IMG/VR virus record: IMGVR_UViG_3300032304_000828 | Location: 1 to 20,753 of that record | DNA from: a virus | Strand: one strand, 5' to 3' | DNA: 20,753 nt | Shown: piece by piece, positions 1,984 through 13,759 of the stretch | Layout of the letters: the number at the start of each line of letters is the position of its first letter | Numbering within the stretch: position 1 is the first letter of the stretch | The notes under the pieces: model-generated | What the model was told of the DNA's origin: nothing | Database searches by the model: none | What the model saw: only the letters and a program-made list of their open reading frames with translations | Translations under genes and position numbers: made by a program

Positions 1984-2505
1984 TTATTTAAAATATGTTT
2001 GCTCAAAGTATAATACTTCGAAATTATTTTCTACATTTACAAGCATCGCTGCATTTAGTAAATCTGAATATTCAATTACTGATTGATTTTGACCCATTCT
2101 ATATGCCGTTAAAAAATCAAATGTATTTAAATCGCTAGAAAATAATTCTTTAGAATCTTTTAAATATGCTTCATAAAGAGCATATTCAATTTGATAAGCT
2201 TTATTAACAATATCAATTAAGTTTGTAAATGCTACATTACCTTTAATTGATGGCATATTAGGAACAACATTCCAATCTACTAAATACTTTTGAATGCCTT
2301 CTGCATGCTCTAATTCATTATCAGCTTCTTCCGCAAAAAATGCAGCAGCTTTTAAATACCCTTCACCAGCGCACCAATTATGGGCATTTCTGTAAAAGTA
2401 ATGAGCCCCGTATTCGTCTTTTAATCTCTCCGTTAATTTTGTTACCGTTTCAGGTGCCAAGACCTTCGGATTTTTTATACTTGATTGTGATGCCTGTGTA
2501 ATCAT
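1984..2505 (-). CDS. Ferritin-like iron-oxidising protein
   Basis: The 173-residue protein aligns by eye with E. coli ferritin FtnA through helices A to D. LTERLKDEYGAHYFYRNA with NWC (24-45) matches helix A, where Glu31 corresponds to ferroxidase Glu17. EEADNELEHAEGIQKYL (59-75) matches helix B, with Glu64 and His67 corresponding to Glu50 and His53. YQIEYALYEAY (104-114) supplies Glu107 for Glu94. YRMGQNQ (135-141) supplies Gln139 for Gln127. The iron-binding set of the ferroxidase centre thus seems intact. FtnA Glu130 falls opposite a non-acidic residue. The C-terminal helix E is short. Ferritins oxidise Fe(II) and store it in a 24-subunit shell in the cytoplasm. The gene lies 17 bases after the tail tube gene and 12 before the 101-aa gene, all in one direction, so it is expressed with late tail genes. 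Whether it assembles a shell or joins the virion cannot be told. Confidence 0.88.
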   Translation of the reverse strand: MITQASQSSIKNPKVLAPETVTKLTERLKDEYGAHYFYRNAHNWCAGEGYLKAAAFFAEEADNELEHAEGIQKYLVDWNVVPNMPSIKGNVAFTNLIDIVNKAYQIEYALYEAYLKDSKELFSSDLNTFDFLTAYRMGQNQSVIEYSDLLNAAMLVNVENNFEVLYFEQTYFK

Positions 2506-3129: not shown

Positions 3130-4590
3130 ATGACTAATAACCCTGGAAGGAAACCTGGCATTAAACGAATAGGAGAATGTCCGATATGTAATATATCATT
3201 TGAATGTAATCCAAGTAATAAAAAAATATACTGTAGTAAAAAATGTGCTAATACAGATCCTGTCGTTAAAGATAAGATACGGGCTGGGCTAAAGGAATCA
3301 TGGAACGGTATTCATCCTATGTTAAGAGATGATGTAAAGAAAAAGCATAAAGAAACAATGATTAAAAACCATGGCGTTGAATATACTATGAAAAACCCAG
3401 AGCTGGTTAAAAGATCTTTAGAAACTAAACTAAAGAAATTTGGACCATCGATGAATAATTTAGAAAAGAGAAAAGAAACTAATTTATTAAGATATGGTTA
3501 TACTCATTCTAATTTTGCTTCACTTCAAAAAAGATATGATGTTAAATATGAAAAGATAATTAATTCATGGAAACATATTATACCATTATTTACTAAAGAA
3601 GAATATCATGGATGTGCACATACTGAAAGATATGATTTTCAATGTGTTGAATGTAATTATTCTTTTAATGTATCTATTGATAATGGATATATACCGCATT
3701 GTAGAATATGCGCTAATAAAAATAATCAAGTATCTAAATCTTCTGGAGAATATCAAATTATCGATTATATTAAGTCAATTGCTCCAAATTTGACGATTGA
3801 ACATAGCAACAGAAATATACTAAATGGAAAAGAATTGGATATTTATATACCAGAATTAAAATTAGCTATTGAATATAATGGTATATATTGGCATTCAGAG
3901 TCAAATGGAAAAAATAAACGGTTCCATATCAATAAAACGAATAGTTGTGCTCATTTTGGTATTCAATTATTACATATATTTGATTATCAATGGGACTTAA
4001 ACCAAGATATTATTAAATCATTAATAGCATCAAAAATACATCAAACGAAGCCGATATATGCTAGAAAATGTAAAATTAAAAAAATTACATCAAAAATTAA
4101 AAATGAATTTTTAAATAATACTCATATACAAGGCCAATGTAATTCTTCAATTAACTTAGGATTATATTACAATGATGAATTAGTTTCAGTAATTACTTTT
4201 GGAAAATCTAGATATGATAAAAAATATGAATATGAACTATTACGATATTCATCTAAACTGCATACTACAGTTGTAGGTGGATTTTCTAAATTACTTAAGT
4301 ATTTTATTAAAGAATATGCTCCTAAAAATATAATGACATATTGCGACAGAAATACTTCCACCGGCAATGTTTATTTAAAAAATGGATTTTCTTTAGTAAA
4401 CATAGTAGACCCTGGGTATTTTTATTTTAAAGATTATAATGTGTATAGTAGAGAGCAATTCCAAAAACATACTCTATCATCAAAATTAAAATATTATGAT
4501 AGTAATTTAACTGAATATCAAAATATGAAAGTTAATAAATATGATAGAGTATGGAATTGTGGAAATTTTAAGTTCGAACTTATTACCTAA
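3130..4590 (+). CDS. Free-standing homing endonuclease, Vsr-like / EDxHD type
   Basis: The 486-residue protein is modular. A first zinc-finger-like site has Cys17, Cys20, Cys35 and Cys39. Residues 60-140 hold repeated helix segments with K-x-x-G-V/Y-x-x-T/S (HGVEYTMKNPELVKRSLETK, LRYGYTHSNFASLQKR), like DNA-binding repeats of homing enzymes. A second Cys cluster is C172, C175, C191 and C194. The nuclease core has Glu207 (SSGEYQI), Asp237 in KELDIYIPELKLAIEYNG, His255 in YWHSE, and Asp285 in HIFDYQWD, which fits the E-D-x-H-D arrangement of I-Bth0305I-type enzymes. The C-terminal part (about 315-445) has a TFGKSRYDKK to VVGGFSKLLKYF to GNVYLKNGF pattern that I recall accompanying such nucleases in phages. 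It is the only plus-strand gene and stops four bases from the end of the convergent GAF-like gene. These features indicate a mobile intergenic gene rather than a structural gene. Confidence 0.88.
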   Translation: MTNNPGRKPGIKRIGECPICNISFECNPSNKKIYCSKKCANTDPVVKDKIRAGLKESWNGIHPMLRDDVKKKHKETMIKNHGVEYTMKNPELVKRSLETKLKKFGPSMNNLEKRKETNLLRYGYTHSNFASLQKRYDVKYEKIINSWKHIIPLFTKEEYHGCAHTERYDFQCVECNYSFNVSIDNGYIPHCRICANKNNQVSKSSGEYQIIDYIKSIAPNLTIEHSNRNILNGKELDIYIPELKLAIEYNGIYWHSESNGKNKRFHINKTNSCAHFGIQLLHIFDYQWDLNQDIIKSLIASKIHQTKPIYARKCKIKKITSKIKNEFLNNTHIQGQCNSSINLGLYYNDELVSVITFGKSRYDKKYEYELLRYSSKLHTTVVGGFSKLLKYFIKEYAPKNIMTYCDRNTSTGNVYLKNGFSLVNIVDPGYFYFKDYNVYSREQFQKHTLSSKLKYYDSNLTEYQNMKVNKYDRVWNCGNFKFELIT

Positions 4591-11305: not shown

Positions 11306-11740
11306 TTATTTAAGTTTGACAAATTTATACCAAACTCTTTCATGAATAAAGTATAATATTGGTTTTATTGCTAATTCACCAACACCTAACATAGAAGCCA
11401 TAGCTATCGGTGCTCCTAAAGTATATGCAACTACTACTGTTGTTAAAGTTCCTAAAAATCTATATGAAATAGTTTTTAATAAGTGTCTTTTAAAGGCAGA
11501 TTCCTTTGGTGGCGTTGTAATATGGGCAATATTATCTTTAATAACACAATTACCTTTACAAGTAATATGCCATTTATATCCTAAACTACCCATATGATCT
11601 TTTGTTGTATAAACTTCACCATTAACAAAAATATCTGAAACTAATGTTTCTATACCATTTTCATCAATCAATCTCCATCTTTCAGTATCATCTTTAGATA
11701 CGGTATTATATCTTATTTGGTATACTTTTGATGTGCTCAT
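11306..11740 (-). CDS. DUF2061 membrane protein with N-terminal soluble domain
   Basis: The C-terminal part (about residues 80-144) is a clear DUF2061 domain: KRHLLKTISYRFLGTLTTVV, a first membrane helix to about residue 107, then a second around APIAMASMLGVGELAIKPIL, and the closing YFIHERVWYKF. The N-terminal 75 residues (VYQIRYNTVSKDDTERWRLI; GYKWHITCKGNCVIKDN) form a soluble beta-rich domain. DUF2061 has no known activity. I recall it next to sulfate-activation genes in Flavobacteria, which would support a link to sulfate metabolism; this should be checked. Its ATG overlaps the stop of the nucleotidyltransferase (ATGA), so translation is coupled. It is the last member of the three-gene overlapping set. 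A membrane partner that channels sulfate or tethers the enzymes is an inference. Confidence 0.88.
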   Translation of the reverse strand: MSTSKVYQIRYNTVSKDDTERWRLIDENGIETLVSDIFVNGEVYTTKDHMGSLGYKWHITCKGNCVIKDNIAHITTPPKESAFKRHLLKTISYRFLGTLTTVVVAYTLGAPIAMASMLGVGELAIKPILYFIHERVWYKFVKLK

Positions 11741-12135
11741 AATTTTCCTTCATTTCTTAATTCTTCTCTGATTTTTGTGGCTGATATTTCTCCTATTTCT
11801 GTAGGCGGAATATGTTCTATAATATCATATCCAACACCTCTTCCAAATTCAATAGAGCATATATCAGGGATAATAATAACTTTTACTTTATCATTCATAT
11901 CAGAATAATAATTTTCTATGTTGTTCTTTACCTGCTCAGCACTGAACGGATTTTTTTCATCGGGGCTAATATCCCTGATACATATCAATACGTTCTTATT
12001 CTTTATCAAAGCCTGGTTAAATAAGGCTTTATGTCCATCATGTAACGGTTGCCATCTTCCTACAAACATAGCATGTTGATTATCTTTTGCTTTTAAAGAA
12101 GATTCAACGTGATGCTTAATACTCCATTCTTTCAT
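11737..12135 (-). CDS. NadM-like nucleotidyltransferase of unknown substrate
   Basis: The 132-residue protein has both hallmark motifs of the HxGH nucleotidyltransferase superfamily. MFVGRWQPLHDGHKALF (23-39) includes the HDGH ATP-binding signature, and ISATKIREEL (117-126) corresponds to the C-terminal I-S-x-T-x-I-R motif. Between them, DEKNPFSAEQVKNNIE (59-74) and VKVIIIPDI (84-92) resemble the NadM nicotinamide-nucleotide adenylyltransferase layout. Such enzymes transfer an AMP or CMP group from a nucleoside triphosphate. ATP sulfurylase belongs to the same superfamily but is far longer and has a different first motif. Overlaps of four bases (ATGA) join it to the APS kinase before and the DUF2061 gene after. 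By context it could make an activated sulfate or sugar precursor; the sequence alone fits an NMN or pantetheine-type substrate equally well. Confidence 0.85.
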   Translation of the reverse strand: MKEWSIKHHVESSLKAKDNQHAMFVGRWQPLHDGHKALFNQALIKNKNVLICIRDISPDEKNPFSAEQVKNNIENYYSDMNDKVKVIIIPDICSIEFGRGVGYDIIEHIPPTEIGEISATKIREELRNEGKL

Positions 12136-12569
12136 AACTTTATTTTATTATTTGATATTTTTAAAATACATTCTTCAACAGATATATTTGTTGTATCTAT
12201 ATCTATAAAATCTTCTGTTGGTTTTTGATAATCACTTACATGAAAATTTTCTCGTCCTCTAATTTCTGTTGTATGAACATAAATTTCTTGAATTGAATTT
12301 CCAAGTTTAGTTTTAAATTCATCTCGTTGATCTTTATAAGGAGATACTAATGAAACAACGACATTACATTCTTTATTATGTAAGAAATGCGCTAATTGCT
12401 GAGCTAGATTTATATTTTTTCTTCTTCCAGTTTCACTGTAATCTGTATTAGCAAATATAGCTCTTAAATCATCGCCGTCAATGTGAAATACATTATCTAA
12501 CGTTTGTTTTAAAGCATTTGCTAATACAGTTTTACCATGACCTGGTTGTCCCGTGAACCAAAATATCAT
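12132..12569 (-). CDS. cysC: Adenylylsulfate (APS) kinase
   Basis: The protein is 145 residues, against about 200 for bacterial CysC, but the ordered motifs are present. There is a Walker A loop GQPGHGKT (7-14) and an IDGDDLR element (30-36) matching L-D-G-D-N-V-R. DYSETGRRKNINL (43-55) matches the S-x-x-D-R-x-E-N-I-R region. SLVSPYKDQRDEF (73-85) matches the S-P-Y-R-x-x-R-D core. IYVHT (96-100) is followed by a DIDT end (123-126). The segment between IYVHT and DIDT is shorter than in CysC and lacks a full lid. APS kinase phosphorylates APS to PAPS, the donor used by sulfotransferases, in the cytoplasm. Its stop overlaps the start of the nucleotidyltransferase (ATGA). The upstream 86-aa gene is 21 bases away. 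The substrate-loop differences leave some doubt about specificity. Confidence 0.85.
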   Translation of the reverse strand: MIFWFTGQPGHGKTVLANALKQTLDNVFHIDGDDLRAIFANTDYSETGRRKNINLAQQLAHFLHNKECNVVVSLVSPYKDQRDEFKTKLGNSIQEIYVHTTEIRGRENFHVSDYQKPTEDFIDIDTTNISVEECILKISNNKIKL

Positions 12570-12590
12570 AACTTATTATTTTAAAGACTT

Positions 12591-12851
12591 TTAAGCTTGA
12601 TAATTGTTACCGGCTACAATACAAGCTTCTATTTGTAATCTTTGTTCTGTTGTTAATCCTGCTGCGAACCAATCCTTAGATAACATTAAAGATAAATGTT
12701 CTACGTTAGGTTTAATGAGCTTTTCTTTTTTTGTTTCAAAGGGTTCAGATACAATTGAATTAATTAAGTTTACAGAATCAAATGCTGCTTTGATTGAGTT
12801 ATTAACTTGTTCTGCTGTTTTTGTTTCTAATTGAAATTGTGGTGTTTCCAT
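12591..12851 (-). CDS. Small helical phage protein, unknown function
   Basis: The 86-residue product starts METPQFQLETKTAEQVNNSI and is largely helical. The C-terminal half contains IKPNVEHLSLMLSKDWFAAG followed by LTTEQRLQIEACIVAGNNY. The N-V-E-H-L-x-x-M-L-x-K-D-W-F motif is one I recall from hypothetical proteins of related marine phages, where no function is given. It lies between the sulfotransferase (17 bases) and the APS kinase (21 bases) on the same strand, so it may be part of the sulfation transcript. Alternatively it may be a resident phage gene around which the cassette was assembled. No Cys pair, metal site or membrane helix is seen beyond a single Cys. Confidence 0.75.
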   Translation of the reverse strand: METPQFQLETKTAEQVNNSIKAAFDSVNLINSIVSEPFETKKEKLIKPNVEHLSLMLSKDWFAAGLTTEQRLQIEACIVAGNNYQA

Positions 12852-12868
12852 TTTGTTTTTATTTTATA

Positions 12869-13687
12869 TTATACGTAATTGAATTTTTTAAAGTACCAAT
12901 TATAATGTTCTTTTAATCTAAAACATTCTTCTTCTCCTAACACTTCGATAAAATCATTAACTACTGGTTTTAATTTTGGCTGTATTGTATGATTGCCAAA
13001 CATACCATGAATAACATCATTTTCTTGAGTTAATTGTTCGATATTATTAAAGTTATGTGTATAGTGTGGTATTTCTAAATAATCATATATTTTTTTAAGT
13101 TCAGCTTCTGGGTTTGTTGTTAAATCTTCAAAACGAACAAATAATATTTTTTTATCTAATCCTTGATGTATAACTTCACTTAACCATTCTACTGAAGGGC
13201 CTATAGGAGGAGCAACAGAAAAATGATCTATTCTTGATTTAGTAGTCATATTTTTTAATTCTATGTTATTAACTATCATTGAATCTTTATCTGGATTTTT
13301 TCTCATGTTTTTTTCCATAGAAGCAAAGATAGCCCTTAAATCACGAACCATACAAATCATTTTAACGTCTCCGTTAAAAAATTTAATAAAGTCATAATGG
13401 CCTAACCAACCTCTACTTTTTTCCATAATATATGGTCTATCAGTTATTCCATCAAAAAATCCTTGGATTCCGCCATTTAAAAAGCCTTTAAAGCCCGATT
13501 TCATTACTTCTGGGTCTTGTGCTTTAAAAGCATCTCCTGTGGTGTAAATTGTTCTGGCTTGTAAAAGAAATTCAATTACTCCGGATGTTGGTGTTGAATA
13601 AATTTCTGGATTCTGCATTAATATATTTTGTATTAATGTAGAGCCAGCTCTTGGTAAAGAAGCATTAAAAAAAATTTGTTTTGTCAT
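12869..13687 (-). CDS. PAPS-dependent sulfotransferase
   Basis: The 272-residue protein has the two PAPS-binding elements of sulfotransferases. The 5'-phosphosulfate loop is FNASLPRAGSTLIQNIL (7-23), with the R-A-G-S-T core. The 3'-phosphate element is MICMVRDLRAIFASMEKNMR (110-129), matching the V-R-D-P-R-x-x-x-x-S pattern with Leu for Pro. LFVRFEDLTTNPEAELKKIY (182-201), the usual F-E-D-L-x-x-x-P segment, and YDYLEIPHY follow. PYIMEKSRGWLGHYDFI (85-101) may shape the acceptor site. It would move a sulfate from PAPS to a hydroxyl or amine of an unknown acceptor. It has no signal peptide, so it acts inside the cell. Together with the APS kinase three genes on, it forms the core of a sulfation module. 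A TATAAATA box lies 64 bases upstream on the same strand. Confidence 0.9.
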   Translation of the reverse strand: MTKQIFFNASLPRAGSTLIQNILMQNPEIYSTPTSGVIEFLLQARTIYTTGDAFKAQDPEVMKSGFKGFLNGGIQGFFDGITDRPYIMEKSRGWLGHYDFIKFFNGDVKMICMVRDLRAIFASMEKNMRKNPDKDSMIVNNIELKNMTTKSRIDHFSVAPPIGPSVEWLSEVIHQGLDKKILFVRFEDLTTNPEAELKKIYDYLEIPHYTHNFNNIEQLTQENDVIHGMFGNHTIQPKLKPVVNDFIEVLGEEECFRLKEHYNWYFKKFNYV

Positions 13688-13751: not shown

Positions 13752-13759
13752 TATTTATA
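13752..13759 (-). promoter_or_regulatory. TATAAATA box upstream of the sulfotransferase
   Basis: The minus strand has a perfect TATAAATA, the T4 late promoter core, 64 bases before the sulfotransferase ATG, in the 98-base gap after the 408-aa fibre. It could drive the sulfation cassette late in infection. The rest of the gap is plain AT-rich DNA with no clear hairpin. Confidence 0.4.

Follow-up and report, generated by a model that had tools for sequence, protein, structure and literature searches.

Biological sulfate use begins with ATP sulfurylase, the step common to sulfation and to assimilatory sulfate reduction; the textbook kinds of this enzyme are Sat and CysDN. The established substrate of the kinase CysC is adenosine 5'-phosphosulfate (APS). 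PAPS synthetases and bifunctional ATP sulfurylase-APS kinases (Sat-CysC, PAPSS), together with a sulfotransferase, lead from sulfate via APS and 3'-phosphoadenosine 5'-phosphosulfate (PAPS) to a sulfate ester. Rhizobium nodPQ (PMC4220642) with a sulfotransferase is a sulfate-activation set dedicated to sulfation, and flavobacteria have operons of DUF2061, CysC and CysD. In phages, sulfotransferases are annotated in cyanophages, and 62 cysC auxiliary metabolic genes found in freshwater phages were read as part of assimilatory sulfate reduction (PMC10914622). The stretch analysed here in its full length, called the window, is a 20.7-kb viral contig (IMG/VR record IMGVR_UViG_3300032304_000828, positions 1 to 20,753). 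It carries a cassette coding for a sulfotransferase, an 86-aa protein, an APS-kinase-like enzyme with a short lid, a small nucleotidyltransferase (NT) and a DUF2061 protein.

We consider it probable that this cassette is a self-contained sulfation module in which the NT takes the part of ATP sulfurylase. The NT would join sulfate to the AMP part of ATP, giving APS and pyrophosphate; the kinase would phosphorylate APS at the 3' position to make PAPS; the sulfotransferase would pass the sulfuryl group from PAPS to an acceptor, which is most likely a glycan carried by the virion fibres or close to them; and the DUF2061 protein would be a membrane protein associated with sulfate activation. The predicted reactions are those of Sat-CysC or PAPSS with a sulfotransferase, and here too an APS-kinase-type domain lies next to an HxGH adenylyltransferase, to which it is fused in some relatives, in either order. 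The cassette resembles the flavobacterial operons in the company that DUF2061 keeps and the rhizobial set in its apparent dedication to sulfation, and differs from both in having the NT in place of CysDN. The freshwater phage kinases are likewise CysC-like and may overlap with ours; the available part of that paper mentions no NT, DUF2061 or sulfotransferase partner. An earlier note on this DNA held that the phage brings its own donor supply as well as the transfer step. A kinase and a sulfotransferase in one conserved cassette agree with this, and the account was incomplete in that the NT, the probable maker of APS, was given no role.

The cassette in viral contigs

With the kinase as sole query, 28 loci were recovered from viral contigs, some of them on contigs that end early. 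The NT is present in 28/28, the DUF2061 protein in 25/28 and the sulfotransferase in 19/28, so the joint occurrence in related phages which the earlier note proposed to look for is indeed found. Scans with the NT and with a kinase profile extended the set to 86 distinct viral loci with both flanks: 86 have the kinase, 85 the NT, 53 DUF2061, 43 a recognisable sulfotransferase, 37 the N-terminal domain of the DUF2061 protein and 17 a relative of the 86-aa protein. As these loci were found via the kinase or the NT, the link between the two is best judged from the kinase-only search. The cassette is far beyond chance, since dozens of viral contigs that have diverged from one another carry the set.

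The sulfotransferase is of the PAPS-dependent type by its Pfam matches and by the 5'-phosphosulfate-binding and 3'-phosphate-binding elements, both of which had been noticed earlier and are conserved among its relatives (Table 1). It also matches phrog_27463 (132.8 bits), and its best solved relative, a weak match, is a tyrosylprotein sulfotransferase. Neighbouring genes were counted in 63 viral loci flanked on each side by 2.5 kb or more, of which 41 have a sulfotransferase. Among these 41, fibre-like genes lie nearby in 38, and a gene like L018:7288-8160, with a weak match to glycosyltransferase family 9, lies nearby in 37; some viral loci with a sulfotransferase have FkbM-type methyltransferases as well. 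The glycosyltransferase gene was not found in the window's own 20 kb. From these neighbours, the likeliest acceptor is a glycan that belongs to the fibres or lies close to them. Three possible targets had been named before, the fibres, host surface glycans and a small molecule, and the proximity to fibre genes favours fibre or glycan over a free small molecule.

The kinase keeps the APS-kinase motifs (P-loop, DGDxxR, RxxN and SxxSP), and every significant solved relative is an APS kinase or a bifunctional enzyme containing one. It stays under every NCBIfam APS-kinase cut-off (64.5 vs 138.7 bits for the TIGR00455 equivalog) because its lid is shortened. The earlier designation as an APS kinase is thus borne out by Pfam, solved relatives and motifs, and has to be qualified for the missing standard lid and the sub-equivalog score.

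The DUF2061 protein of the window is a fusion of a domain of about 86 residues, which has its own gene in many relatives, and the membrane domain. A family search with the N-terminal domain gave no match. In the order to which the Flavobacteriales genome G033 belongs, at least 20 of the 30 genomes that bear DUF2061 have it at most 4 kb from CysC or CysD. Two Bacteroidota loci (L075:3686-4384 and L076:5312-6010) have DUF2061 fused to the N-terminus of an APS kinase which is followed by the NT. This proximity and these fusions tie DUF2061 to sulfate activation; our guess is that it serves sulfate entry or anchors the enzymes to the membrane.

The nucleotidyltransferase as a candidate ATP sulfurylase

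With its alpha/beta fold and its GRxQPxHxGH and ISxTxIR motifs the NT belongs to the NMNAT-like adenylyltransferase superfamily. A structure model from a 103-row alignment has a pLDDT of 91.2 and a pTM of 0.82 (an initial model from 19 rows was poor, pLDDT 72.7), and the nearest solved relatives, by sequence and by fold, are nicotinamide mononucleotide (NMN) adenylyltransferases. The NT shares with archaeal-type NMN adenylyltransferase (NadM) and PPAT the fold, the standard nucleotide-binding half and GRxQPxHxGH; it differs from them in a shortened acceptor half with an invariant GR.VGY loop and in its genomic company, which is that of sulfate activation. We propose that this loop, which reads GRDVGY, GRNVGY or GREVGY in haloarchaea, is the sulfate-binding site; profile alignment does not place it onto the GRD loop of Sat, although some haloarchaeal copies have GRDVGY.

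Membership of the Sat family was considered and rejected: the NT, a protein of about 110-160 residues, reaches 14.7 bits against the PF01747 cut-off of 24.3, NTs of other phages reach at most 18.9 bits, and there is no significant profile match. The QXRN (RNP) sulfate/alpha-phosphate loop of ATP sulfurylase, a motif defined in PMC3779200, is not in the NT, which in alignments has GRWQP at the same position. Nor did 29 phage records contain an ATP sulfurylase above cut-off elsewhere; the weak matches that were compared (G355 and G347) are the NT itself.

A genome scan found the NT in Bacteroidota, Fidelibacterota (Marinimicrobia), Nitrospirota, Patescibacteria, marine group III and DPANN archaea and Haloarcula. 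An APS-kinase gene is near the NT or fused to it in 42/49 cellular loci. The fusions are CysC-NT in L058, L074, L077 and L078 and NT-CysC in L079, L081 and L082. About 24 of the 42 cellular kinases have a full lid and 18 a short one; thus both kinase types accompany the same NT family. Also near the cellular NT are PAP phosphatase genes of the CysQ, inositol-monophosphatase type (L053, L066 and L079) and sulfotransferases (L053, L066 and L077). In 4/4 annotated plasmid regions from cultured haloarchaea, a CysC-NT fusion that is annotated simply as cysC comes after a sulfotransferase. In Nitrospirales the NT stands last, after sulfite reductase-TusA and then APS/PAPS reductase.

The replacement of CysD or Sat by the NT was followed in two sets of genomes; these are related and many are incomplete, and the p-value given is therefore descriptive. 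In the order of G033 (296 genomes, 119 with CysC) the NT is found in 8 genomes, all with CysC directly upstream. Of the 111 CysC genomes that have no NT, 110 have CysD, against 0/8 of those that have the NT (Fisher p = 1e-11), and Sat is absent from all 8; the only CysC genome with neither NT nor CysD is G246, whose CysC is partial and lies where a contig ends. In the phylum of G005 (149 genomes, 7 with the NT) Sat occurs in 0/7 NT genomes vs 51/82 other APS-kinase genomes, and CysD in 0/7; a further 18 APS-kinase genomes without the NT have an open frame of CysNC length. Taken over all 49 NT genomes, Sat is found in 6 and CysD above cut-off in 2. Judging by NT scores and gene neighbourhoods, each of the two sets seems to contain two or more NT lineages.

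Because the NT is found in settings both of sulfation and of sulfate reduction, and because it replaces known enzymes, it most likely makes APS. On balance we favour a broader statement, held with somewhat more reserve than that about the cassette: that the NT is a third class of ATP sulfurylase, with the NMNAT fold and without profile kinship to Sat or CysDN, occurring in bacteria, archaea and phages; that with an APS kinase it forms the smallest known PAPS synthetase; and that it gives phages a complete pathway from sulfate to product. In the open-access literature on novel, alternative or minimal ATP sulfurylases, on DUF2061 function and on phage sulfation we found no prior description of the NT in this role or of the coupled cassette. 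If true, a third and tiny ATP sulfurylase changes the prediction of sulfate use in those marine bacteria, archaea and phages where CysC seems an orphan; phages would carry a whole sulfation pathway, probably decorating fibres or associated glycans; and a compact PAPS-making enzyme would be at hand for biotechnology.

Points against and alternative readings

Several observations weigh against the NT as ATP sulfurylase in a sulfation module. It has neither a profile relationship to ATP sulfurylase nor the QXRN loop, and the APS-kinase lid (D.KGxY/FTG) is found in 0/117 viral kinases. Sat stands alongside the NT in Nitrospirales, G010, G014 and G028, and CysD in G031 and G041; moreover the NT-positive genomes are phylogenetically clustered, so that they effectively represent perhaps four to six independent replacements. 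In about one viral locus in three, kinase and NT occur without a recognised sulfotransferase; two such loci, L031 and L169, carry other candidate transferases, picked out by motif and with no Pfam match. In L027:6440-6784, L140:4623-4991 and L141:4626-4994 the gene of a small HAD phosphatase lies between kinase and NT, and these phages have no recognised sulfotransferase, which hints that their product differs or that the phosphatase serves in nucleotide clean-up. Viral loci with other transferases or the phosphatase may make other products.

In one alternative the product of the NT and the short kinase is some other 3'-phosphonucleotide donor, and the "sulfotransferase" moves a group other than sulfate. 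There is a precedent in the CysC-like Cj1415, which acts for a phosphoramidate donor in Campylobacter, and the missing lid, an acceptor loop (GRGVGY) unlike Sat and the HAD phosphatase of some loci are in keeping with it. We nevertheless think it unlikely: members of this NT family are paired with full-lid CysC scoring 211-290 bits, above the apsK equivalog cut-off of 138.7, the NT follows CysH/CysI in Nitrospirales, and no gene for the glutamine kinase or the amidohydrolase on which the phosphoramidate route depends was seen in the loci inspected.

The fold of the NT suggests another alternative, a nicotinamide salvage pair like NadR in which the kinase makes NMN and the NT makes NAD, the sulfotransferase being coincidental or using host PAPS. 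Besides the NMN adenylyltransferases as nearest solved relatives, the NADAR and MazG genes adjoining divergent kinase-NT fusions of Stenotrophomonas phages speak for it. We give it a small chance, as the kinase's own solved relatives are APS kinases and as salvage leaves unexplained both the company of full-lid CysC, CysQ, sulfotransferases and CysH/CysI and the exclusion with CysD and Sat.

That the NT regulates or recycles adenylates for CysC, with APS from a host ATP sulfurylase and the phage giving kinase and sulfotransferase only, as the earlier note had it, suits the normal dependence of phages on host enzymes and the Sat or CysD of some NT-positive genomes, but is very improbable in view of the many NT-positive genomes, a majority, that keep CysC without recognisable CysD or Sat, the haloarchaeal plasmids where a CysC-NT fusion stands alone beside a sulfotransferase, and the catalytic motifs of the NT, invariant in 103 sequences.

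Coordinates and neighbouring genes

All five cassette genes are on the minus strand, transcribed in the order sulfotransferase, 86-aa protein, kinase, NT, DUF2061 protein, and the kinase/NT and NT/DUF2061 junctions are both ATGA overlaps; the earlier description of five co-directional open reading frames (ORFs), the last three overlapping, is correct in both respects and in the positions given. Late expression, which it also suggested, is not borne out by the T4-type late motif TATAAATA, which is not enriched in the window (11 observed vs 9.6 expected).

Table 1. Positions of the cassette genes and their motifs in the window
Feature	Position	Strand	Observation
Sulfotransferase, 272 aa, PAPS-dependent type	12869..13687	-	Sulfotransfer_3 60 bits, Sulfotransfer_1 52.6 bits, both above cut-off
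PRAGST, 5'-phosphosulfate-binding loop, sulfotransferase residues 12-17	13637..13654	-	PR.G.TL kept in aligned relatives
RDLRAIFAS, 3'-phosphate-binding element, residues 115-123 (R115..S123)	13319..13345	-	RD......S kept in aligned relatives
86-aa protein, optional member	12591..12851	-	Related gene in 17/86 distinct viral loci; no family match in Pfam or PHROG
Short-lid APS-kinase-like enzyme, 145 aa	12132..12569	-	Pfam APS_kinase 57.3 bits (cut-off 21.1)
GQPGHGKT, kinase Walker A loop	12528..12551	-	114/117 viral kinases
DGDDLR, kinase motif	12462..12479	-	115/117 viral kinases
TTEIRGRENFHVSDYQKPTE, shortened kinase lid	12213..12272	-	Long CysC lid (D.KGxY, FTG) missing in 117/117 viral kinases
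NT, NMNAT-like-fold adenylyltransferase, candidate minimal ATP sulfurylase, 132 aa	11737..12135	-	CTP_transf_like 26 bits (cut-off 21)
GRWQPLHDGH, NT nucleotide-binding HxGH-type motif	12031..12060	-	G26, R27, Q29, H32 invariant, H35 at least 90% (103 sequences)
GRGVGYD, family-specific NT loop, proposed sulfate/acceptor site	11824..11844	-	G98, R99, G102, Y103 invariant (103 sequences)
ISATKIR, NT motif	11767..11787	-	S118, R123 invariant (103 sequences)
DUF2061 protein, whole ORF	11306-11740	-	DUF2061 54.7 bits (cut-off 23.1)
N-terminal domain of DUF2061 protein, 86 aa	11483..11740	-	Separate gene of about 77 aa between NT and DUF2061 in L018 and L019
DUF2061 membrane domain	11330..11482	-	PF09834 54.7 bits
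TATAAATA box, possible late promoter (weak)	13752..13759	-	Exact match, 65 bases upstream of sulfotransferase start

The window comes from the part of a large contractile-tailed phage genome that encodes the tail, with genes for sheath, tail tube and a T4-type baseplate and fibre genes with repeats. Judged by sheath and tube, the closest isolates are Microcystis phage Mel-JY01 and the Flavobacterium phages of the immuto group. Between the tail tube and baseplate genes lies a ferritin-like gene (1984-2505, minus strand, PF00210 56.9 bits). A 486-aa ORF (3130-4590, plus strand) stands on the opposite strand inside the tail operon; it has weak DUF7487 and Mom-like matches and is possibly an insert of the homing-endonuclease type.

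Fused, divergent kinase-NT genes occur in the Stenotrophomonas phages (L002:4590-5330 and L003:4593-5324) and on a Microvirga plasmid (L300:6581-7363). The L002 fusion adjoins NADAR and lies downstream of MazG and cysteine dioxygenase genes; with their divergent kinases and other neighbours these fusions may have a different function. S-adenosylmethionine-cycle genes (MetK, SahH, MetH or MetF, assigned by inspection of the sequences) are often near the kinase/CysC-NT genes of marine bacteria and archaea (L038, L052, L056, L061 and L064). On plasmids from cultured haloarchaea a YqcI/YcgG-family gene adjoins the sulfotransferase/CysC-NT cassette (L298, L299 and L302; upstream and on the opposite strand in L301), suggesting a small modified and sulfated metabolite.

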